From Streptomyces europaeiscabiei (GTDB lineage: Bacteria; Actinomycetota; Actinomycetes; Streptomycetales; Streptomycetaceae): DNA of 64,000 nucleotides. The stretch spans positions 4,282,001 to 4,346,000 of the forward strand of contig NZ_CP107841.1 in assembly GCF_036346855.1 (NCBI RefSeq). Reading direction: 5' to 3'. Below the pieces are notes generated by a model that ran no database searches, had not been told where the DNA came from, and saw only the letters and a list, made by a program, of their open reading frames with translations. Below, one piece after another: positions 588 to 12,524 of the stretch; the stretch's first letter is position 1; the number at the start of each line of letters is the position of its first letter. Position numbers and translations under genes: made by a program.

Positions 588-1100
588 CACCCCTCCCCTC
601 GCGGCGGCACCGCGACGGCCTCAGTCCGCGTGAAAGCGGGCCGGGGCCTTCGTCGGGTTGCCGCCGGTGGGGAGCTTCTGCTCCGGGCAACTGCTCAGGA
701 CGCGCTCCATGGCGGCCTGTTCGGCGGAGGTGACCCAGAGGCCGTACTTCGTCTTCACCGCGACCTGCGCGGCCACATAGGTGCAGCGGTACGCCTTGTT
801 GGGCGGGAGCCAGGTGGCCGTGTCACCGTCGCCCTTGCCGCGGTTGGTGCCGGAGTCGACCGCGAGGAGGTTGAGCGGGTCGTTGGCCAGGGCTATGCGC
901 TTGCTGTCGTCCCATTGCTGGGCGCCCTTCTGCCAGGCGTCGGAGAGGGCCACTATGTGGTCCACGTCGATCTTGCTACGGCCCCGGACGTACGGCACGT
1001 CCTCGCCGGTGTACGGGTCCGGGTCGAGCACACCGGAGACCACCGTGCAGTCGCCGTCCCGGAACTTCACGTCGTCCAGGTCGCGCTTGAGTATGTCGTC

Positions 1101-1111
1101 ACGGGTTATCT
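1101..1111. repeat. Left junction: 6-bp core ACGGGT plus terminal GTTATCT
   Basis: ACGGGT at 1101-1106 is the same hexamer found at 6709-6714 and is the only sequence that must be counted once to restore the HNH reading frame. GTTATCTGCAT runs inward from 1105, and a near copy, GTTATCTGCCAT, occurs again at 1174-1185. This may be a pair of recombinase arm sites. Confidence 0.75.
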
Positions 1112-1188
1112 GCATGCCCTTCTTCCCCGCGAGAGACATGAGTGACAGCCGTGTCCTCTCTCTGTCTCTCTCCGTTATCTGCCATACC

Positions 1189-1202
1189 GAGAGGCACATG
1201 GG
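1189..1202. repeat. Subterminal inverted repeat, left copy
   Basis: GAGAGGCACATGGG is the exact reverse complement of CCCATGTGCCTCTC at 6622-6635. It sits about 90 bp from the left core, just upstream of tnpA. It is a candidate transposase-binding arm site. Confidence 0.7.
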
Positions 1203-1229
1203 TGACATACCTGAGAGAGGGATGAATCA

Positions 1230-2351
1230 ATGGGATTACATACGGAGAAGGCTGTCTCACCCACCACAGGAGAGGTCACCTGGCTACTCGTGGACGAGGC
1301 GACCTACTGCCCTCATCCCGAGGCACGGGAGTTCTCGCTCTACTTGCGAGGTGCGGGACGCTCACCGCAGACGCAACGCGCCTACATCCCTCGTATCGGG
1401 CGCTTCCTCAATTGGTGCGCGGGACGGGACACGGACTGGAGGGCCGTCGGACTCGGCGACATGACCCGGTTCAAGTTCCACGTCGAGCGGACACCGACCC
1501 GGCATGGACGATTCCCATCGGCAAAGACCGTCAACGCCGTCCTCACCGCCGTCTGTGAGTTCCTCCGTTTCTGCGCTGTACAGGGTCATGTTGCCCAAGA
1601 GGTCGCCGCACGGCTGAGTGAGCCGCGCTTCCTGACCTCGCCGCCAAGCGGCTTCGACCCGGGAGAAGGCGGCCGGCACCTCATGATCAAGGCTCGCGTC
1701 CTGAAGGCGCCCGAGATCGAAACAGCACCCGCGATTCTCACCCCGCCCCAGGTCAGGGAGGTGCTGGAGGCAGCCCGTTCGGCCCGGGACCGGCTGCTCC
1801 TGACGGTGCTCGTAGAAGGGGGCCTGCGGATCGGCGAGGCTCTCGGACTGCGGCGGGAGGACATGCACCTGCTGCCCGACTCAACGCATCTGGGCTGCTG
1901 TACACGCGGCGCCCATCTGCATGTCCGCCCCAGGCAGGACAATGTGAACGGCGCGCGGGTGAAGGCAGGCCGCCATCGGATGGTTCCGCTGACCACGGGA
2001 GCGGTGCACCGGTACCGCGACCATCTTTCAGAGCGGGAGAACGTGCCCGAAGCCACCAGTTGCGACTACGTGTTCGTGAACCTCATCGGAGCGTATGCGG
2101 GCAGGCCGATGACGTACTCCAACTCCAAGCAGATCGTCGAGAGGATCGGTGAGCGCTGTGGCTTCCGCGCCCGTCCGCACATGATGCGGCACACCGCAGC
2201 AACGCAGTGGATTCGCAGCGGCGTCTCACCGGACGTCGTCCAGACGCTGCTGGGCCATGTCTCATCGGCGAGCACCGCTGTCTATCTGCACGCCCAGGAC
2301 GAGGAGCTCCGAGCCGCTGTCGAGCGTGTCTCGCCGGAGGTCGTCCGATGA
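1230..2351 (+). CDS. tnpA: Tyrosine recombinase TnpA of Tn554-like element
   Basis: At 373 residues it is close to the 361 of Tn554 TnpA. An N-terminal SAM-like core-binding domain (about 30-130) precedes the catalytic domain. The catalytic residues are readable: Arg200 in [15 protein letters not shown], a basic KAGRHR strand near 246, HMMRH with His317 and Arg320, LLGH with His343, and nucleophile Tyr352 in TAVYLH. The product should cut and rejoin the transposon ends with TnpB. ATG 1230 was chosen because GAGAGAGG lies about 10 bases upstream. The stop overlaps the tnpB start as ATGA, so translation is probably coupled. Confidence 0.93.
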
Positions 2352-4546
2352 CGCGAGGTACCGGCTTCGCTATAGCCGCACTGCCTCGTCCGGAGGACCC
2401 CGCTTGGGCTACCTGGCTCGTGGAACGTCTCCTCCCCGGCTGGCGCTCGGCCGAGTGGGACGAGAACGCGCTGTTCTTCACCGCGGTTCCAGGGAATCCA
2501 GCAACCAGCGTGTTCGTCTGCAAGGTGAACGCATGCTCCACTCACGTGGCCCACAACGGCGGCCGCTGCAGCGCCTGCAGAAGGACCCGGTCGGCTCGTG
2601 GCAACCCATCAAACTTCGACGAGACCTACGTACCTGACTCGGCACGTCGCCGACCCAATGTCTCGGACGGGCCCCTGCCTGGAGTTTCCCAGTTCTCGCT
2701 CAGCGGTGTCTCCTTGGCCGTGCGGCGGGAAATCCTGTACGGAATTCAGCAGCGCGATGCCGCCGGTATCAACCTCGTGCCCCAGCATGTCCGTCGTGTT
2801 GTCGCCGGGTTACCGCCTGGCTTGTCATCTCTCTTGGACCTGGACGAGAGCTTTACCCGTGGCCTCCCTGCCGACGCCGCCGGCTTCTTGAACGGCGTTC
2901 TTCTTCATGTCCAGCGCGCTCGCCTGCAGTTCAACGGTGGTGACGCCACATCAGGGGACGTCTGGCAAAGCTCTTTGGTGGGGCTCACCGCCGGGCGGGG
3001 GCGCAAGTACGCCGCCGTTCACGGCATCATCGACTTCCGGCCCATTCGGCAACAGTGGCTACGGGAGCTGGTCAAGGAGTACGGACGCACTGTTCGTCCC
3101 AACGTGCTGGATCTGAGGCAGACACTGTATGCAGCCTCGATCGCGTCCACGGCCCTGGCCGACCGCCCTCAGAGCGACAAGCCGGAGAACCTGTCGATGT
3201 CCGATATGAGTGCAGTAGTGGACGCGTTCCGTGTGGCGAAGCGCTCCGACGGTCGCGACTACTCAACGAGCCACCGCCGGTCACTTCTCCGTCTGTGGCG
3301 GACGTTCCTGGAGTACGCACGCCAAGCCGGGATGATGGACCACGTGCCGGGCGGGTTCGCGCTCAATCCCAGATACCACAGCATCGCCGCGGTTGAGGCT
3401 TCCGAGGACGACATCGGCCGGGCCATCCCTGAGCATGTCATTGCCCAGCTCAACGCCCATATCTCCCTGCTCGGCACCTCGACCACGTACGAAAGCGGAG
3501 GCTGGACAGCTGCTGACTTCACACAGATGTACCAGGTCGTCTACAGGGTGCTCCGGGACACCGGACGACGCCCGGGCGAGGTCACCAGCCTGCACCGCGA
3601 CTGCCTGGAGTGGATCGACGGCAAGCCGACCTTGATCTACGACAACCACAAGCGGCGCCGTCATGGCCGACGGCTTCCCATCAGCGAGGCGACGGCCCAG
3701 GAGATCGAGGCGTGGAAGAAGGAACTGGACCGGCTGCCGCCCGTACCTGCGTGTGAAGAGTGGCTGTTCCCCTCACCGGGACAGCGCAACCGGCCTCGGC
3801 GAGGTCATCTGACCTCCGCGCAGTTCTGCAACCGGATCTTCCGAGACTGGGTCGACGAACTGATCTCGGACCTCGTGGACGAACGCCTGGACGAAAGCGG
3901 CGCCCCGCTCGCCTACGACCGCACCCAGATCGTCCCGTACGGCTTCCGGCACGCCTACGCCCAGCGGCACGCTGACGCCGGGACTCGACCGGATGTCCTC
4001 AAGGAACTCATGGACCACCGATCACTCGACGTCACCATGGGCTACTACAAGGTTTCCCTCAGCCGCAAGCAGGAGGCCGTCAGGACAGTGGCGAAACTCG
4101 CCGTCGACCGGCACGGCACCCCACAGGGCTTCGGCGACCCACTGGCCTACGAGGTCGAAAGCGTCGCAGTCCCCTACGGCGGCTGCACCGAACCCAGCAA
4201 CGTCAAGGCGGGCGGCGGGCACTGCCGCATCCGTTTCCAGTGCGCCGGCTGCGACTTCTACCGTCCCGACCCCTCTTACCTTCCTGCCCTGGAGCAGCAG
4301 GTGGCGGAGCTGCGTGCCGACAAAGAAGCCGCGCTGGCCATGGACGCCGCCGACTGGGTCGTACGCAACTTCGACGACCAGATCCGGGCGTACGCGCAGT
4401 CGGCCGACGAGATGCGACGCCGACTCGAAGAGTTACCGGAGGACGAGCGGGCGGCGGTCGAGGCCGCCTCCCGTGCACTGCGCAAGGCCCGCTCGGCCGC
4501 AGCGTTCATCCCCGTGCAGTCCTTGACCACCCGGAGTGCCCTGTGA
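2348..4546 (+). CDS. tnpB: Tyrosine recombinase TnpB of Tn554-like element
   Basis: A 732-residue tyrosine recombinase, longer than Tn554 TnpB (630). The N-terminus has a Cys-rich patch (KVNACSTH...CSACRRT, about 58-78) that could bind zinc. The catalytic domain shows [12 protein letters not shown] (Arg about 407), [26 protein letters not shown] (HxxR about 533) and [17 protein letters not shown] (His about 556, Tyr near 566). After it come a Cys/His cluster (CTEP...[12 protein letters not shown]) and an acidic coiled coil. The ATG at 2348 overlaps the tnpA stop. The open frame extends further upstream, but that would overlap tnpA by a wide margin and was rejected. Confidence 0.93.
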
Positions 4547-5142
4547 GCCCTACCACCAGTTCCGACGCTGCGAGCCTGGATGCGCGAGTCCGGCGGCTGT
4601 CTGCCGCCCGCGCCCAAGACAGCGAGGCCAAGACAGCCCGCTCCCTGGACGTCGTGCGCGATCTCCTCGGCTCCGGTCAGCGGGTCACGTTCGCCGGTGT
4701 GGCCCGCGAGGCGTCGGTGTCCACGTGGTTCGTCTACAACCAGGCCCAAGTACGAGATGCGGTGCAGGCCGCCATGGACGAGCAACGGAAGCACGGTCGC
4801 CACACCTCTCAAGTTTCAGGTGCTCAGCGCGTGAACCCGGCCGGGCTGCACACCGAACTCGCCCTTGCACGGGAGGAGATCAAGGATCTCAAGAAGGAGC
4901 GTGACCGGCTCCGAGGGCGTGTGAGGCTTTCCCTGGGCGTGGAGCTGGACGATGTGGACCGCAGCAAGCTGGTCGAACGGCTAGAGCAGTTGGAACGTGA
5001 GAAGGTCGAGTTGCAGCATGAGCTCGCGAACACCCGAGACCGACTGATTTCTCTGGAGGGACGCCTGCAGGAGTCGGAGGACGATCTCACCGCTGCCAGA
5101 GCCAGCCTCCGCCGGGCGATGCGGGCGGTGCCTTCGCAGTGA
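4543..5142 (+). CDS. tnpC: TnpC-like accessory protein (DUF6262-like)
   Basis: GTG 4543 overlaps the TnpB stop as GTGA and gives 199 residues. The N-terminal half has a helix-turn-helix look (GQRVTFAGVAREASVSTWFVYN, about 47-68), then a long charged coiled coil (EEIKDLKKERDRLRGRV, LVERLEQLEREKVELQHEL, about 105-195). In Tn554, TnpC is a small non-recombinase protein that influences transposition efficiency and orientation. Position, coupling and architecture support the same role here. It is longer than the 125 residues of Tn554 TnpC. Confidence 0.82.
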   Translation: MSPTTSSDAASLDARVRRLSAARAQDSEAKTARSLDVVRDLLGSGQRVTFAGVAREASVSTWFVYNQAQVRDAVQAAMDEQRKHGRHTSQVSGAQRVNPAGLHTELALAREEIKDLKKERDRLRGRVRLSLGVELDDVDRSKLVERLEQLEREKVELQHELANTRDRLISLEGRLQESEDDLTAARASLRRAMRAVPSQ

Positions 5143-5201
5143 CCGAACGATGGAGCAAGATTTAGGGCCTGGCGCTGAGCGAGTTGTGGTAGGCAGGGTC
5201 G

Positions 5202-5828
5202 GTGATCGGCCGACTCCCTCTCGACCAGCAACTTGAGCGCCTGCGCGCGACGCTGTCCCGTAACGATGTGTTGATGGAAGTACTGGCGCGGTCTGCGGCA
5301 TTGGATCTGCCTGGGTGGTATGTCACGGCCGGGTGCCTGTTCCAGACCGTTTGGAACGTCGTCACGGGCAGACCGCCGACCAGCGGCATCAAGGACTACG
5401 ACGTCTTCTACTTCGACGCCGGCGATCTGTCCTGGGAGGCGGAGGATGCTGTGATCAAGGCCGGGCGGGAGGTCTTTGCGGACTTGCCTGCAGAGGTTGA
5501 GATCCGGAACGAGGCACGAGTTCACCTCTGGTACGAGGACAAGTTCGGAGTGCCCTGTCCGCCGTATGAGTCCACCGAGGCGGCGATCGACAGGTTCGCC
5601 GCGACAACGTGCTGTCTGGGAGTGCGGATTGCGGCGGACGGCCGCTGGCGGGTATATGCGCCGCATGGGCTGTCGGACATGTTCAACCTCGTCGTCCGCC
5701 CGAACCCGGTGCTCGCCCCGCAGTCGGTCTACGAGGCCAAGGCAGCCCGGTGGCGGGAGCAATGGCCCGAGCTGACCGTCCTGGACTGGCCCTCCACGAG
5801 CATCACGGCCCCCTCGTCCCGCAGCTGA
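5202..5828 (+). CDS. Nucleotidyltransferase-like cargo protein (PF06042-like)
   Basis: GTG 5202 gives 208 residues and starts 60 bp after tnpC on the same strand, so it may be on the same transcript. WYVTAGCLFQTVWN followed by KDYDVFYFDAGDLSW (about 40-75) matches the G...W...D-x-D-v-x-y-f-D signature of the PF06042/NTP_transf_6 group. RVHLWYEDKFG and the later ADGRWRVYAPHGLSDMFNLVVRPNP also fit that group. The two acidic residues of the DYDV motif would be the metal ligands. The substrate is unknown. It could be a passenger or an element-maintenance gene, and nothing in the sequence decides between these. Confidence 0.75.
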   Translation: MIGRLPLDQQLERLRATLSRNDVLMEVLARSAALDLPGWYVTAGCLFQTVWNVVTGRPPTSGIKDYDVFYFDAGDLSWEAEDAVIKAGREVFADLPAEVEIRNEARVHLWYEDKFGVPCPPYESTEAAIDRFAATTCCLGVRIAADGRWRVYAPHGLSDMFNLVVRPNPVLAPQSVYEAKAARWREQWPELTVLDWPSTSITAPSSRS

Positions 5829-5849
5829 CGCCGGCTACCTCTGCCGACA

Positions 5850-6626
5850 TCATCCGCCGCACTGCTTCAGCATCATCTGCTTGTCGGGCGCCGTAACCGG
5901 CATCTCGTACTTGAGGGCGACCTGAGCGAAGCGGACCACATAGGCGCACCTGATCGGCTTGTTGGGCGGAAGCCACGAGGCGGGTCCGGAATCTCCCTTG
6001 GCCGAGTTGGCACGCCCTTCGACCGGGATCAGATTGAGCACATCGTTCGCAAACTGCTTGCGCTTGCTCTCCGGCCACCGCGACGAGCCCATCTGCCAGC
6101 TGTACGACAGCGGCACCACATGGTCTATCTGCACCTCGGAAGCCGCTTGCTTGCGCCACTCGATGGTCCTGCCGGTGTACGGATCGTGCAACGTCATGGC
6201 GACGACCACACAGTCGGAACCACTGCGGAAGCGGAGATCCTGACCATCGCGCTCGATGAGATCGTTTCGGGTGTCACACCCGTTTCTCGCCAACGGCACC
6301 CCATCAGCCGTGTCCATCCAGGCATAGCCGAATTCGTCCCGGGCATAGCCGGTTTTCGGGCCCCTCCCCTTCGTCGACAGCTCCTCTATGAGTTTTCGGG
6401 CCGTCTCCTCGTCCGCGTCCGCTGTCACGGGCGCCAGCCCCGGCTTCGTACCGGCAGGGTTCTTCAGCGGACTGACCGCCCGTCCATCCGGCGAGGTCGG
6501 TCCGGCTCCCGTCGAAGAGTCACCTTCCTCAAGGCCTTCGCATCCCGAGACGAGAACCGCAGCGGTTACCCACACGGCTACGGCCCGGAGGAAACGCGTG
6601 CCGGTCCCCGCACTCCCGTGCCCCAT
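5850..6626 (-). CDS. Secreted lipoprotein HNH endonuclease carried by the transposon, homologue of its target gene
   Basis: 258 residues from ATG 6626, or 268 from an alternative Met at 6656. The signal peptide ends in a lipobox (AAVLVSGCEG), and a Gly/Pro/Ser-rich spacer leads to a DUF1524-type HNH domain (VQIDHVVPLSYSWQM, ANDVLNLIPVEG, GPASWLPPNKPIRCAYV). It aligns along its length with the interrupted gene (FGYAWMDT vs FGSAWADT, NGCDTRND vs NSCDTRDD, SWLPPNK vs TWLPPNK) but is clearly diverged, so it is not a fresh duplication. It lies on the same strand as the broken gene. The chosen start codon is inside the right subterminal inverted repeat (6622-6635), so expression may be tied to the transposon end. 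Confidence 0.9.
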   Translation of the reverse strand: MGHGSAGTGTRFLRAVAVWVTAAVLVSGCEGLEEGDSSTGAGPTSPDGRAVSPLKNPAGTKPGLAPVTADADEETARKLIEELSTKGRGPKTGYARDEFGYAWMDTADGVPLARNGCDTRNDLIERDGQDLRFRSGSDCVVVAMTLHDPYTGRTIEWRKQAASEVQIDHVVPLSYSWQMGSSRWPESKRKQFANDVLNLIPVEGRANSAKGDSGPASWLPPNKPIRCAYVVRFAQVALKYEMPVTAPDKQMMLKQCGG

Positions 6627-6635
6627 GTGCCTCTC
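6622..6635. repeat. Subterminal inverted repeat, right copy
   Basis: CCCATGTGCCTCTC is the exact inverse of 1189-1202. It contains the ATG (6624-6626, minus strand) of the cargo HNH gene. A further small inverted repeat, CTATCC/GGATAG (6684-6689 and 6696-6701), lies between it and the right core. Confidence 0.7.
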
Positions 6636-6701
6636 AGTAAGCACAGGCCACCCCACCCCGTATGAGCTGGCCGAACGCCTCAGCTATCCGTCGCAGGATA
6701 G

Positions 6702-6714
6702 AGATAACACGGGT
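6702..6714. repeat. Right junction: AGATAAC plus 6-bp core ACGGGT
   Basis: ACGGGT at 6709-6714 reads ACCCGT (Thr-Arg codons) in the interrupted gene and is identical to the left core at 1101-1106. AGATAAC (6702-6708) mirrors GTTATCT of the left end. Confidence 0.75.
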
Positions 6715-6948
6715 GTCGCAGCTGTTGGAGTCCGTGTCGGCCCAGGCGCTGCCGAACTCACCGCGGTCGTAATCGGTCTTCGGCGCCCGCCCCTTGACGG
6801 TCAGTGCCTCCGCGGCGGCGAACGCGGCGCCGCCGCCCCCGCCGGGGTTCTCCTGCGGTCCGGCCGAGCCGCCCGTGTCGTCCAGTTCGCAGCCGGTCGC
6901 GGCGACCAGCACCAGAGCGACGACAGCGACCCCACCCCTCAAACGCAC
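6709..6948 (-). pseudogene. N-terminal fragment of secreted HNH endonuclease interrupted by the transposon
   Basis: From GTG 6948 (or the adjacent GTG 6951; AGGAAAGGGG lies upstream) this encodes a lipoprotein signal peptide with lipobox LVAATGC, a glycine-rich spacer and the conserved AEALTVKGRAPKTDYDRGEF and SNSCDTR segments. The frame then runs into transposon sequence and stops near 6634. The rest of the protein is at 621-1106. Promoter and start codon appear intact, so a short lipoprotein of about 105 residues without an HNH domain is probably still made. Confidence 0.85.
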
Positions 6949-7177
6949 CACGCGACACCCCTTTCCTCTGCCTGTGCTCTCACGCGGTCCCGCATGGGGT
7001 TCCCCGTCCTGCCTGCTCGACACCGTAGCGGCAGCCGGGCACGGCCATACCGGCACCCGGTGGTCATCGACAGTCAGCAGGTGCACGCCGGGCGTATGCC
7101 CGGTGGTGAGGGGCCAACACCCCAAGGAGGCGTCAGCGCGTCCGGCCGCCCGGTCAGCCCGGTCCGTCAGGAGGCGT

Positions 7178-8113
7178 TCACACCTTGCCGATCCCCAGGG
7201 TCGTCTCCGACGGAAGCAGGCCCGAGCCGATCACGGCGACCCAGAACTCGCCCAGCAGGTCGGCGAGTCGGGCGGTGTCGGTGGGACCGAGGAACTGCCA
7301 GGGGACGGCGGCCAGTCGGTCGGTGTGCAGCTCGACCTGCCGGCGCAGACTCCGGCCGGCCTCCGTGGCCGTACCGTCCGGATGCACCAGCCCGCGTGCC
7401 GTGAGGCGGGCGTGGGCGGCGCTCCATTCCTCCTTGCTCCAGCCGCGGCTCTCGAAGCGCTCCACCGAGGCGGCGCCTGTCGCGGCGAAGGAGACGAGGG
7501 ACTCGGCGGGATCGAGGTCCGCGGTCAGCAGGGCCGCGAGGTGGCCGTCACCACGGTGTTCGCGCAGGATCGTGGCCGCCCGCCAGAGTGCAAGGTGCGC
7601 GGGCTCGGGCCAGGGCAGCTCGGCGTTGGCCGCCGCGAGGGGGCGCCCCGCGGTGTTCGCGAACTCCGCGGCGCGGCGGGCCAGGCGGGCGGCCTCGGTG
7701 AGTTCGGCGCTGTGCACGCGGTCCGCGAATATGGCTCGGTACGCCCGGTCGATCGCCCGGTCCCGGGCCTCCAGCACGGCTGCCGGTGGCGCGGTCTTCC
7801 AGGCCTGTTCGATGTGCTCCGCGACCATGCGGGGGCTGAAGCTGTAGAAGGCGGAGGCCGTCCGCTCGACTCCGACGGAGCCCAGGGGCGCAGCCCGGAA
7901 CGGGAAGTAGCTGGGCCACCTCTCCCGCACGTCGTACCCCAGCGCGGCCGCTTCCTCGAAGGCCTCCGGCGCGTAGTAGAGGACGGCGTGCAAGGGCTCC
8001 AGCAGGTGCCACATACGGCGCACCTCACCCAGGCCCACGGTGCCGCCTTCGGCTTCGCGATGTTCGGCCTCGCCTCGCGCCGCAGTACCGCTCCCGTTGA
8101 CGTGCTCGGACAT
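7178..8113 (-). CDS. SCO6745/SalK-like protein with helical N-terminus
   Basis: 311 residues from ATG 8113, which has GGGGGAT a few bases upstream. The open frame extends 19 codons further without a ribosome site. The sequence (RRMWHLLEPLHAVLYYAPEA, FPFRAAPLGSVG, PWPEPAHLALWRAATILREHRGDGH, GWSKEEWSAAHARLTARGLV, GPTDTARLADLLGEFW) matches the actinobacterial SCO6745 family, often labelled SalK-like. The C-terminal part resembles a winged helix. The biochemical role is not established. It is divergent from the TetR gene at 8244, which may control it. Confidence 0.7.
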   Translation of the reverse strand: MSEHVNGSGTAARGEAEHREAEGGTVGLGEVRRMWHLLEPLHAVLYYAPEAFEEAAALGYDVRERWPSYFPFRAAPLGSVGVERTASAFYSFSPRMVAEHIEQAWKTAPPAAVLEARDRAIDRAYRAIFADRVHSAELTEAARLARRAAEFANTAGRPLAAANAELPWPEPAHLALWRAATILREHRGDGHLAALLTADLDPAESLVSFAATGAASVERFESRGWSKEEWSAAHARLTARGLVHPDGTATEAGRSLRRQVELHTDRLAAVPWQFLGPTDTARLADLLGEFWVAVIGSGLLPSETTLGIGKV

Positions 8114-8970: not shown

Positions 8971-11900
8971 GACCCCAGAATCGAGGCCAGGAACTCCCCG
9001 GTCCATCCCAACAGGTCCCGGCCGAGCAGCGGCTTCCCGCCCACCTTCGCCGTCTTCGGGCGGGGCACCAGCACCTGGTGGGCGGCCGGCTTGATGACCG
9101 TCCCCGGATACAGGCGCTTGAGGCGGAGCTCCTGCGACTCCCGCAGCTCCACCGGGGCGAAGCGGATGTTGGTGCCCTGGAGGACGATCTCGCCGACACC
9201 GCAGGCTCGGGCGAGCATGCGCAGACCGGCGACGAGCAGCAGGTTCTCCACCGGCTCGGGCAACTTGCCGTAACGGTCGACCAGTTCCTCGCGCACCGCG
9301 GCGATGTCGGCCTCGGTGTTGACGGAGGCGATCGCCCGGTACGCCTGCAACCTCAGCCGCTCCCCCGGCGCGTAGTCGTGCGGGACATGCGCGTCGACCG
9401 GCAGCTCGATCTTGACGTCGAGCGGCGGCTCCTCCTCGATCTCCCCGGTCTCCAGCTGACGGCGGTAGTCCGCGACGGCCTCGCCGACCATGCGGACGTA
9501 CAGGTCGAAGCCCACGCCCGCGATGTGACCGGACTGCTCGCCACCCAGCAGATTGCCCGCGCCCCGGATCTCCAGGTCCTTCATCGCCACGTACATGCCC
9601 GCGCCCATCTCCGTGTGCTGGGCGATGGTCGCGAGGCGCTCGTGGGCCGTCTCCGTCAGGGGCTTCTCCGGCGGGTACAGGAAGTAGGAGTAACCGCGTT
9701 CCCGGCCTCGGCCGACCCGGCCCCTCAGCTGGTGCAGCTGCGACAGGCCGAAGGTGTCTCCCCGCTCCACGATCAGCGTGTTCGCGTTCGAGATGTCGAT
9801 CCCCGACTCCACGATCGTCGTGGACACGAGGACGTCGAACTTCTTCTCCCAGAAGTCGACGACGACCTGCTCCAGGGCCTGCTCCGACATCTGGCCGTGG
9901 GCCGTCGCGATCCGTGCCTCGGGGACGATCTCGCGCAGCCGGGAAGCGGCGCGGTCGATGGACTCCACCCGGTTGTGGATGTAGAAGACCTGGCCCTCGC
10001 GGAGCAGTTCGCGGCGGATTGCCGCGCCGATCTGCTTCTCCTCGTACGGGCCGACGAAGGTGAGGACCGGGTGGCGCTCCTCCGGCGGGGTGGTGATCGT
10101 CGACATCTCGCGGATGCCGGTCACCGCCATCTCCAGCGTCCTCGGGATCGGTGTCGCGGACATCGTCAGCACGTCCACGTTCGCGCGGAGCTTCTTCAGC
10201 TGCTCCTTGTGCTCGACGCCGAACCGCTGCTCCTCGTCGACGATGACGAGGCCGAGATCCTTGAACTTGGTCTCGGAGGAGAAGAGGCGGTGGGTGCCGA
10301 TGACGATGTCGACCGCGCCCTCGCGCAGGCCCTCCAGCGTGCCCTTGGCCTCGGTGTCCGTCTGGAAGCGGGACAGGGCCCGGACGTTCACCGGGAACTG
10401 CGAGTACCGCTCGCTGAACGTGCCGAAGTGCTGCTGCACCAGAAGGGTGGTCGGGACGAGCACGGCCACCTGCTTGCCGTCCTGGACGGCCTTGAAGGCG
10501 GCCCGGACCGCGATCTCCGTCTTGCCGTAGCCGACGTCGCCGCAGATCAGGCGGTCCATGGGGACCGTCTTCTCCATGTCCTCCTTGACCTCGGCGATCG
10601 TCGTCAGCTGGTCGGGCGTCTCCGCGTACGGGAAGGCGTCCTCCAGCTCACGCTGCCAGGGCGTGTCCGCAGCGAACGCGTGACCGGGCGCCGCCATCCG
10701 CGCGCTGTAGAGCTTGATGAGGTCGGCGGCGATCTCCTTGACCGCCTTCTTCGCGCGCGCCTTCGTCTTCGTCCAGTCGGCACCGCCCAGCCGGTGCAGG
10801 GTCGGGGCCTCGCCTCCGACGTACTTCGTGATCTGTTCGAGCTGGTCCGTCGGGATGTAGAGGCGGTCGCCGGGCTGGCCGCGCTTGGCGGGGGCGTACT
10901 CGACGACCAGGTACTCGCGGGTCGCGCCCTGCACGGTCCGCTGGACCATCTCGATGTAGCGGCCGACACCGTGCTGTTCGTGCACGATGTAGTCGCCCGC
11001 CTCAAGGGTCAGCGGGTCGATGGTCTTGCGGCGGCGGGCGGGCATCCGGGCGCCGTCCTTGCCGGCCGCCTTCTGGCCGGTGAGGTCGGTCTCGGTGAGG
11101 ACGGCCAGCTTCAGGGCGGGGTCGACGAAGCCGTAGTCGATCGAGCCGCACGCCACATGCACGACCGACGGGGAGATCTGCCCCAGCTCTGCCTCCAGAC
11201 GGGCCGCGATGCCCTCGCCGCCGAGCACCTCGACCGTGCGGGCCGCCGGGCCGTGGGCCTCGGTGACGAACACCGTGCGCCAGCCGTCGGCGAGCCAGCC
11301 CTTGGTGTCGGCGAGGGCCTTGGCCGTGTCGCCCCGGTAGGTGTCGGGGGCGTGCATGCCCAGCTTGAGGGTGTCGCCCGCCGCGTCGGCGGCATAGGTC
11401 TCCGTCAGCTCCTCGTCGACCGCGAACGGCGACACCGACCACCACATCATGTCCAGCTCACGGGCCCGCTCACGGACGTCCGCGATGGACCACAGGGAGG
11501 CCGCGCCGACGTCGATGGGCGCCTCGCCGCCCCCGGCGGTCGCCGCCCAGGACGCGTGCAGGAACTCCTGCGAGGTGGCCACCAGGTCCGCCGCGCGCGT
11601 CCGCACCCGCTCCGGGTCGCAGACGATCGTCATGGCGCCCTTCGGCAGGACGTCGATCAGCAGTTCCATGTCGTCGACGAGAACCGGAGCGAGAGATTCC
11701 ATTCCCTCGACGGCGATGCCCTCGGCGATCTTGTTGAGGAGTTCGCCCAGCTCCGGGTGGCGTTCGGCGAGGGCACGCGCGCGGGCGCGTACGTCGTCGG
11801 TGAGGAGGAGTTCGCGGCAGGGCGGCGCCCACAGGCCGTGCTCGGCGACCTCCAGGGAGCGCTGGTCGGCGACCTTGAAGTACCGGATCTCCTCGACGTC

Positions 11901-12524
11901 GTCGCCCCAGAACTCCACTCGGAGGGGGTGTTCCTCGGTCGGCGGGAAGACATCGAGGATGCCGCCGCGTACGGCGAACTCGCCGCGCTTCTCGACGAGT
12001 TCGACGCGGGAGTACGCGGCTGCCGCCAGTGCCTCGACCGTACGGTTCAGGTCGGCCGTCTCGCCCGAGCGCAGGGCGACCGGTTCGAGGTCGCCGAGGC
12101 CCTTGACCTGGGGCTGGAGGACCGAGCGGACGGGGGCGACGACGACCGAGACCGGGCCGGTCTCCGGGTCGTCCGGGCGCGGGTGGGTCAGGCGGCGCAG
12201 CACGGCGAGGCGGCGGCCGACGGTGTCGCTGCGCGGGCTGAGCCGCTCGTGCGGGAGCGTCTCCCAGGCCGGGTACTCCACGACCCCGTCCGGGGGGAGC
12301 AGCGAGCGCAGGGCCGCCGCCAGGTCCTCGGCCTCGCGGCCCGTCGCCGTCACGGCGAGTACGGGGCGGCCGGCGTCGCGGGTGAGGGCGGCCACCGCGA
12401 AGGGGCGGGCCGCCGGGGGGCCCACCAGGTCGATGTGGGTGCGGTGGCCGTCGGATGCCGCCCTGATCGCTTCCGCGAGGGGGGCGTCCTTGACTACGGC
12501 GTCTAGCAGACCGTGGAGGCTCAT
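8967..12524 (-). CDS. mfd: Transcription-repair coupling factor Mfd
   Basis: 1185 residues from ATG 12524 (MSLHGLLDAVV), the usual actinobacterial length; the open frame extends 74 codons upstream into low-quality sequence. Order: UvrB-like N-terminus (AVTATGREAEDLAAALRSLL), RNA-polymerase interaction domain (EAGDYIVHEQHGVGRY), RecG-like motor with Walker A ICGDVGYGKTEIAVRAAF, DEEQRFG box and QLRGRVGRGRERGYSY motif VI, then the TRCF C-terminal domain. Mfd removes polymerase stalled at lesions by ATP-driven translocation and recruits UvrA. It appears monocistronic. Confidence 0.97.
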   Translation of the reverse strand: MSLHGLLDAVVKDAPLAEAIRAASDGHRTHIDLVGPPAARPFAVAALTRDAGRPVLAVTATGREAEDLAAALRSLLPPDGVVEYPAWETLPHERLSPRSDTVGRRLAVLRRLTHPRPDDPETGPVSVVVAPVRSVLQPQVKGLGDLEPVALRSGETADLNRTVEALAAAAYSRVELVEKRGEFAVRGGILDVFPPTEEHPLRVEFWGDDVEEIRYFKVADQRSLEVAEHGLWAPPCRELLLTDDVRARARALAERHPELGELLNKIAEGIAVEGMESLAPVLVDDMELLIDVLPKGAMTIVCDPERVRTRAADLVATSQEFLHASWAATAGGGEAPIDVGAASLWSIADVRERARELDMMWWSVSPFAVDEELTETYAADAAGDTLKLGMHAPDTYRGDTAKALADTKGWLADGWRTVFVTEAHGPAARTVEVLGGEGIAARLEAELGQISPSVVHVACGSIDYGFVDPALKLAVLTETDLTGQKAAGKDGARMPARRRKTIDPLTLEAGDYIVHEQHGVGRYIEMVQRTVQGATREYLVVEYAPAKRGQPGDRLYIPTDQLEQITKYVGGEAPTLHRLGGADWTKTKARAKKAVKEIAADLIKLYSARMAAPGHAFAADTPWQRELEDAFPYAETPDQLTTIAEVKEDMEKTVPMDRLICGDVGYGKTEIAVRAAFKAVQDGKQVAVLVPTTLLVQQHFGTFSERYSQFPVNVRALSRFQTDTEAKGTLEGLREGAVDIVIGTHRLFSSETKFKDLGLVIVDEEQRFGVEHKEQLKKLRANVDVLTMSATPIPRTLEMAVTGIREMSTITTPPEERHPVLTFVGPYEEKQIGAAIRRELLREGQVFYIHNRVESIDRAASRLREIVPEARIATAHGQMSEQALEQVVVDFWEKKFDVLVSTTIVESGIDISNANTLIVERGDTFGLSQLHQLRGRVGRGRERGYSYFLYPPEKPLTETAHERLATIAQHTEMGAGMYVAMKDLEIRGAGNLLGGEQSGHIAGVGFDLYVRMVGEAVADYRRQLETGEIEEEPPLDVKIELPVDAHVPHDYAPGERLRLQAYRAIASVNTEADIAAVREELVDRYGKLPEPVENLLLVAGLRMLARACGVGEIVLQGTNIRFAPVELRESQELRLKRLYPGTVIKPAAHQVLVPRPKTAKVGGKPLLGRDLLGWTGEFLASILGS

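Follow-up and report, generated by a model that had tools for sequence, protein, structure and literature searches.

Structure of the interrupted locus

The stretch analysed here (the window) comprises 64,000 nucleotides (nt) of contig NZ_CP107841.1 (positions 4,282,001 to 4,346,000) of Streptomyces europaeiscabiei, whose genome of 10.95 Mb consists of three contigs. In this window, a Tn554-like element of about 5.6 kb interrupts a lipoprotein gene of the HNH nuclease family GmrSD_C/DUF1524 at the codons for the residues CDTR and carries, at its right end, an intact homologue of the gene that it splits. This combination of a split gene and a homologue as cargo had been noticed in a preliminary description made from the letters alone. 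It is confirmed here, and the coordinates given there for both gene halves and for the cargo were correct to within a few bases (Table 1). Pfam matches and a 7-bp core present at both junctions also bear out the statement that a Tn554-like gene trio lies within a DUF1524 lipoprotein gene. With one core included, the element measures 5608 bp. The first two genes of the trio encode the tyrosine recombinases TnpA and TnpB, as in the Tn554 family, and the third, a DUF6262 gene by Pfam, would correspond to tnpC of Tn554 judging from the gene order. The element shares with that family its site-specific insertion at a short core, since the same codons are used in 15 of 15 Streptomyces elements, and shares with elements of the Tn553/Tn552-II type a complete homologue of the split gene.

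The HNH genes of this family are of two types, A and B, which are about 45% identical; the split gene is type A and the cargo is type B. The N-terminal half of the split gene starts with GTG, encodes a lipoprotein leader (read by eye) and ends with the residues CDTR; a Pfam search with this half (6709-6948) gave no match. The cargo protein is 44% identical to the C-terminal half over 135 positions (E 8e-38) and 55% identical to the N-terminal half over 40 positions (E 1e-10). Because cargo and target differ in more than half of their residues and the cargos of related elements group apart from their own targets, the earlier argument that the second gene is not a duplication made on insertion holds. 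One further homologue, 36% identical, is present in the window genome at E 1e-3 or better. A reading of the cargo as a defence gene was set aside, as its protein matched no PADLOC family, the sole PADLOC match in the set searched being a weak one of TnpC to JetC. No relatives of solved structure were found at E 0.1, and the viral contigs searched yielded a single remote match, to TnpA.

Table 1. Coordinates of the interrupted gene, the element and its parts in the window
Feature	Position	Strand	Evidence
Disrupted host gene (HNH lipoprotein, GmrSD_C/DUF1524, type A), C-terminal half	621..1106	-	Pfam PF07510 positions 2-135 of 138, E 7.9e-23; joined with the N-terminal half in intact relatives L083, L070 and L080
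Left 7-bp core (ACCCGTG, gene strand), within Thr-Arg codons of the target	1100..1106	-	Same 7 bp at both junctions
Tn554-like element, unique part of 5601 bp; inner ends AGATA / TTATCT on gene strand	1107..6707	.	Junction alignment
tnpA, tyrosine recombinase	1230..2351	+	PF00589, 1.4e-31
tnpB, large tyrosine recombinase, overlapping the tnpA stop	2348..4546	+	PF00589, 1.8e-10
tnpC by position, DUF6262	4543..5142	+	PF19776
Variable passenger gene, nucleotidyltransferase NTP_transf_6	5202..5828	+	PF06042
Intact HNH lipoprotein cargo, type B, homologue of the disrupted gene	5850..6626	-	PF07510 and PF13395 matches
Right end of the element, 81 nt, prolonging the frame of the broken gene and ending TGAGAGGCAC just before the cargo ATG	6627..6707	-	Right-end comparison
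TGA stop of the truncated target frame, overlapping the presumed ribosome-binding site of the cargo	6634..6636	-	
Right 7-bp core	6708..6714	-	Same 7 bp at both junctions
Disrupted host gene, N-terminal half	6709..6948	-	Alignment to cargo and intact relatives

Recurrence of the site and the cargo in Streptomyces

Searches with TnpA covered 392 genomes of the genus, 391 of the order and 394 of the class (overlapping draws), together with the GTDB contig collection. With the window included, 15 distinct Streptomyces elements were recovered whose TnpA is about 79% or more identical. The insertion codons are the same in all 15, and an HNH homologue lies at the right end of each of the 14 elements in which a right end is present; the S. 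rishiriensis contig ends inside tnpA. This recurrence of codons and homologue is not due to chance. The preliminary description had raised the question of whether other such trios in DUF1524 lipoprotein genes would each bring an HNH gene along, and within this clade they do so, at the same site. Both ends bear an identical 7-bp core in all 14 Streptomyces elements compared, those with rarer variants of the core included, and in an element of Rhodococcus opacus. A cargo lying outside the element, as part of a tandem pair of host genes, was rejected as an explanation, because the two cores enclose the cargo in each of the 13 elements for which both ends were available, and also in the element of genome G515.

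The Streptomyces elements measure 5.6-8.1 kb and hold different genes in the stretch that separates tnpC from the HNH gene. Pfam assignments of the window passenger and of one open reading frame from each of five other elements gave NTP_transf_6 for the window and, for the others, a methyltransferase, DUF6183, DsbA, an ArsR-type helix-turn-helix (HTH) protein and a weak TPR match below the cut-off. The NTP_transf_6 gene found no match in the related elements searched, which have different passengers. More distant elements served as controls. No HNH match was found within 11.9-18 kb (element ends not mapped) in 24 Streptomyces elements whose TnpA is 40-49% identical, namely 22 of the 34 places below 79% in the genus search, one in genome G631 and one on a plasmid, nor within the same span in a Rhodococcus element of equal TnpA similarity (L143). 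The loci of G657 (TnpA 50-52%) likewise had no HNH match, over 2.8 kb each only, and were excluded from the counts. The GTDB contig collection yielded 14 TnpA loci, 11 of them at at least 61% identity; the three remote ones were without an HNH match. The R. opacus element (TnpA 61%) qualifies this picture, since it uses the site without an HNH cargo; targeting therefore does not require that cargo.

Three loci deserve separate mention. In HB132 (L041), TnpA is 89% identical to that of the window, but the right end and the cargo belong to the other of the two cargo clades described below; the two may move together, as one module, from element to element. In genome G016, a remnant (L145, G016:C5, 4421-5975) retains a type-A N-terminal half, the right end, an open HNH cargo and 19 residues of tnpC, and neither tnpA and tnpB nor the C-terminal half was found in 16 kb. 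Its HNH gene groups with resident type-B genes and not with the other cargos. It is possibly a cargo kept after decay of the transposon, and it was counted for a rescue function. A decayed copy on a plasmid of Streptomyces sp. NBC_01591 (L114, 8000-8381) preserves the right end and the first 96 cargo residues at 86% identity, with no match to a tnp gene in 16 kb.

Intact loci of the target family

In an alignment of one homologue set, 27 of the 30 HNH loci are aligned straight over the insertion codons, and uninterrupted relatives thus hold one joined gene across the site. Within the clade, neither of the two outcomes that the preliminary description named as refuting it was seen. The three exceptions are the target of the window itself (L068), the target of another element (L078) and a remnant (L093). 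The gene order at L083 equals that of the window, with an HTH_67 gene, an intact type-A HNH gene and a lipoprotein gene, and L096 has the same order but a type-B HNH gene, so that the resident gene at this locus is of either type in different Streptomyces. Type-A genes (L083, L070 and L080) and type-B genes (L087-L092, L094 and L096) share their neighbours, the HTH_67 gene and/or the lipoprotein gene, as if the locus had been replaced repeatedly. Beyond chromosomes, the cargo was matched in 472 plasmid records.

Placement of the cargo behind the broken gene

The distance from the first base of the core to the start codon of the cargo is 88 nt in all 15 right ends matched by script, which comprise 13 of the 14 elements, the G016 remnant and the decayed plasmid copy of NBC_01591. 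HB132 was absent from the script matches owing to a one-base difference in the ribosome-site motif; the same spacing was seen in its sequence. Counted from the core, the broken frame continues through 25 or 26 codons, and its stop lies 10 or 13 nt upstream of the ATG or GTG of the cargo, in 13 of 13 elements and in G515. The motif TGAGAGG, a likely ribosome-binding site that includes the stop, precedes the start in 12 of the 13, and HB132 has CGAGAGG after a TAG stop. All 15 right ends leave the target frame open, compared with 3 and 10 of them for the two remaining frames, and within the target frame the third position of the codon is the most variable (entropy 0.89 vs 0.56 and 0.66). Given a stop 10-13 nt before the cargo start in these 14 elements, translational coupling between the broken gene and the cargo is likely in Streptomyces. 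A fusion of the N-terminal half with the cargo was rejected, the two lying in different frames. A scan of 5700-7200 for sigma-70-type promoters found none, a result that says little for Streptomyces promoters and counts neither for nor against the explanation proposed below.

Selection, ancestry and the core codon

Pairwise ratios of nonsynonymous to synonymous substitution rates (dN/dS) were computed for the C-terminal domain by the Nei-Gojobori method. Their median is 0.144 in one Streptomyces cargo clade and 0.164 in the other, compared with 0.264 in type-B and 0.355 in type-A resident genes. The cargo is under purifying selection. A tree of 68 domains contains long branches, and its finer placements are uncertain. 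The Streptomyces cargos belong to its type-B part, where they lie within a group of 17 (support 80/57) that also holds the free-standing genes L146, L147 and L148; they are not strictly one clade, their joint branch being weakly supported by the same values. The targets scatter among resident genes of their own type, and this distribution agrees with the earlier view of the diverged homologue as travelling cargo. The Rhodococcus cargos lie across a long branch with support of 100/99, which indicates that cargo was acquired, or exchanged, more than once.

The cargo itself contains the CDTR codons, and the codon for the core Arg is CGA in 7 of 7 members of one Streptomyces cargo clade and CGG in 7 of 7 members of the other. 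It is the only all-Arg column that never varies in either clade, at a median synonymous divergence (dS) near 0.6. Among conserved columns that are at least fourfold degenerate, 10 of 56 and 13 of 59 are codon-invariant in the respective clades, and 4 of the 47 shared columns are so in both. Of these four, the core alone keeps the amino acid of the residents with codons absent from ten type-B residents (CGC in nine, CGT in one), a set from which L146-L148 were omitted since they are placed among the cargos. A wider background of 39 genes, left from 68 loci after 28 without the motif in place and the non-Streptomyces locus L084 were dropped, has CGC in 29, CGG in 6, CGT in 3 and CGA in 1; the single CGA belongs to the G016 remnant, and the tree places two genes with CGG among the cargos. 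The targets struck carry CGC or CGT in 14 of the 15 rows compared, the S. rishiriensis target having CGG; the G515 target, outside those rows, has CGT. In all 13 listed cargos, the core Arg codon differs from the core that the element itself struck.

Counterparts in Rhodococcus

Rhodococcus plasmids carry two lineages of comparable elements. Lineage 1 (TnpA 57% identical) combines the CDTR site with an HNH cargo in 6 of the 6 records read, of 8 listed. These records contain near-identical elements in different targets, and the two cores of the element differ in 5 of the 6, which fits a core brought in at the right end. Lineage 2, whose TnpA is about 25% identical to that of the window, occurs in five of those six records and in R. 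erythropolis KB1 (L144). It is inserted in an HNH gene at a codon that we take to encode the catalytic His of the HNH motif, and it carries another HNH gene. In four elements examined by sequence, the target piece runs for 30 codons and ends in TGATG, overlapping the cargo start, and plasmid 4 of NJ-530 has a 1-nt overlap by annotation. Relatives of lineage 2 at L136-L140 and L142 (TnpA 41-60%) gave no HNH match.

At L141, on a plasmid of R. ruber MSA14 (TnpA 42%), an open HNH gene (5430-6131) lies about 0.9 kb from tnpA on the side opposite the trio. On the R. erythropolis KB1 plasmid (L144), the 5' piece of the gene split by the lineage-2 element (11626-12069) is 97% identical to the HNH cargo of the other Rhodococcus element, and the 3' piece (6539-6808) is only about 38-40% like either Rhodococcus cargo; either one element struck the cargo of another or the two recombined. 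On pLP1 of R. qingshengii VT6 (L107, 1744-12029), two different Tn554-like elements, each with an HNH copy, apparently divide an HNH gene into three pieces.

A different target was found on plasmids of Rhodococcus sp. WAY2 and R. qingshengii djl-6, where a Tn554-like element (TnpA 45-46%) splits a serine resolvase gene after residue 122-123. These elements carry an intact resolvase homologue (L143, 6501-13225; L190 and L191, 7501-14039), and the ends AGATAA and TTATCT recur in them. L190 and L194 seem to be the same region recorded for two plasmids, and the element at L191 has another target. R. erythropolis BG43 and M. kansasii gave no match to the resolvase cargo. Self-homology was screened in the 24 Streptomyces controls and in nine elements from plasmids (L135-L143), at up to eight pairs per locus and with two HNH elements serving as positive controls. 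A clear split target with a homologue was detected only in L143; other pairs occurred at L101, L117, L122, L129, L132, L139, L140 and L142.

Proposed mechanism and alternatives

Starting from the observed site, core, conserved cargo and cargo position 88 nt behind the right junction, we consider it probable that the element is a site-specific Tn554-like integrative transposon that carries a full-length rescue copy of its own target. The recombinase would land in the CDTR codons of a conserved gene for a secreted HNH-nuclease lipoprotein, whose promoter would then transcribe the truncated 5' half followed by the cargo. Ribosomes that reach the end of the truncated frame, 10-13 nt short of the cargo start, could then re-initiate at that start. 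The host would thereby keep a natively regulated nuclease of the family, and a conserved docking site would become available to the element at little cost. The core codon of the cargo carries a synonymous change that may keep the recombinase off the cargo, and this is the weakest step. In favour of the explanation count also the purifying selection on the cargo, the lack of HNH matches in the distant controls and the repetition of the arrangement in both Rhodococcus lineages and in the resolvase elements. The cargo, with an open frame, a conserved HNH region and a low dN/dS, is a putative rescue gene. Insertion may be cost-free and the cargo may replace the target, as the preliminary description proposed; its interpretation is partly supported overall and well supported in its central idea.

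A wider proposal is tentative and, in our estimate, falls somewhat short of an even chance. Tn554-like elements of Actinomycetota may have repeatedly evolved a home-and-rescue habit, striking CDTR or catalytic-His codons or a serine resolvase gene and supplying a full replacement, with a Streptomyces branch that would express the replacement through the promoter and frame of the broken gene and would have its core synonymously recoded against self-attack. It was rated down to this level because of the Rhodococcus cores.

A number of observations weigh against these proposals. The target family is not universal, as the matches in five genomes (G002, G017, G018, G021 and G030) are weak, with a best E of about 1e-27 or weaker, and disruption may therefore cost little. 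Cargo and target are only about 44% identical, and their specificity may differ. Broken type-A C-terminal halves have a dN/dS of 0.353, with no relaxed selection or sign of decay. All Streptomyces right ends are of one length, which points to one inherited and kept arrangement rather than to many events. The target frame of Rhodococcus lineage 1 ends 8 codons past the beginning of the core, about 300 nt before the annotated cargo start; in the lineage-2 copy L111, it runs past the cargo start; and the resolvase cargo is in the opposite orientation. The early stop of lineage 1 and the inverted resolvase cargo mean that coupling is not general. R. opacus ATCC 51881 (lineage 1) and R. koreensis R85 (lineage 2) have elements at the same sites without an HNH cargo. 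As to the core, the S. rishiriensis target was struck at CGG, the lineage-1 cargo has CGC with CGA in the right-junction core in 3 of 6 records, the reverse of Streptomyces, and the recoding amounts to one or two changed codons. That a recoded core protects the cargo is thus possible in Streptomyces only and doubtful; recoding as proven immunity is not claimed, given the S. rishiriensis hit and the Rhodococcus reversal.

The HNH lipoprotein could also be an ordinary passenger, for instance a surface nuclease used in competition or against incoming DNA, whose likeness to the target is incidental or dates from its pick-up. The presence of the family in hundreds of plasmid records and the modest identity of cargo and target would suit such a passenger. 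The explanation is nevertheless unlikely, because a homologue of the target occurs in several unrelated pairings of element and target as well as in the published Tn553, because the HNH gene is constant beside changing passengers, and because it sits in a frame-linked position behind the 5' half of the target; the missing PADLOC match is weak evidence in the same direction.

If the cargo is instead thought to swap the host nuclease for one of another specificity, an allele substitution that alters, for example, who is attacked or excluded, then the type-B cargos in type-A targets in 10 of the 14 elements with a right end, and the occurrence of both types at the same chromosomal locus in different Streptomyces, would follow. 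The elements of anulatus, AC1-42W, DI166 and WAC04229, however, have type-B targets and type-B cargo with no switch of type, and we regard a swap as rather improbable. Least probable of all, with a very small chance, is a target-like gene that serves transposition, either by providing an attachment site within the element or by supplying homology. For the target-like gene tgl of Tn552-II, in which a copy of the attachment site (att) lies, a combined role that includes transposition has been suggested (Wan et al. 2025, PMC12486829), and the Streptomyces cargo likewise contains the CDTR codons; yet the core Arg codon of the cargo departs from the struck core in every listed case, selection acts on the protein, and elements without the gene occupy the same sites. 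A rescue copy of the target is the preferred explanation of the cargo.

Comparison with known systems

The kind of arrangement described here is already published for one staphylococcal target; what is new is an actinobacterial family, the number of element and target pairings, and the link between the broken gene and its replacement. A further lead is the synonymous change that the Streptomyces cargos conserve at the core. Literature joining Tn554, HNH and Streptomyces, or DUF1524, Streptomyces and an integration site, was not found in a search that is weak, most subscription papers lying outside it; the one paper that combined the Tn554 family with Streptomyces is a review on resistance to vancomycin. 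Selfish elements need conserved docking sites and pay for breaking conserved genes, a conflict that a rescue copy delivered at the site would solve. The remark made on Tn553 is extended to a comparative pattern of several pairings of element, target and replacement, to which Streptomyces adds a conserved link of the broken gene to its replacement and conservation of a synonymous site at the core. Comparison of the split gene with the cargo provides a simple predictor for other elements. Streptomyces also offers a tractable system for measuring what insertion costs when the rescue gene is present and when it is absent.

Some integrative elements limit the damage at a conserved docking site by restoring the end of the tRNA or protein gene that holds their attachment site attB. 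Those elements restore a few codons or nucleotides of the original, whereas the element described here leaves the original broken and brings in a complete, diverged homologue. Gene drives engineered on the home-and-rescue (HomeR) or Cleave-and-Rescue principle reportedly break a gene and supply a recoded functional copy; they are a functional parallel only, being engineered and without kinship to the window element. As for Tn554, its preferred target is radC, and it is not known to carry a target copy. Tn554 of Staphylococcus aureus shares with the window element the TnpA and TnpB tyrosine recombinases with TnpC, the target specificity and a short footprint; its listed hosts are Staphylococcus and Enterococcus, the host range not having been formally investigated (PMC10214605). 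SEs share two tyrosine recombinases with a TnpC-like protein, selected sites and a 6-bp footprint, and differ in a four-gene core and a distribution mainly in Gammaproteobacteria; the passages on them mention no target copy (PMC10214605).

The closest precedents are Tn553, Tn7702 and Tn552-II, Tn554-related elements of Staphylococcus aureus that are inserted in a yolD-like gene and carry a distinct yolD-like copy, for which complementation or rescue of the disrupted gene has been suggested (PMC10763498; PMC12486829). The claim of the preliminary description that no Tn554-family member with this arrangement had been described is therefore incorrect. These elements resemble that of the window in having tnpABC, a copy of the target gene and a core of 6-7 bp (PMC10763498; PMC12486829), and the 'target-gene-like' gene (tgl) of Tn552-II may provide a rescue mechanism (PMC12486829). 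The Tn553 type differs in its yolD-like target, its host phylum, its blaZ operon passengers and the small number of elements described; since both target and cargo of the window element are GmrSD_C/DUF1524 HNH genes and not yolD-like, it constitutes a separate variant. The att copy within tgl of Tn552-II (CAAAAGG) equals the att used, whereas the cores of the Streptomyces cargos differ from the core struck, and the text on Tn552-II makes no mention of translational coupling (PMC12486829), unlike what is proposed here for the Streptomyces elements.

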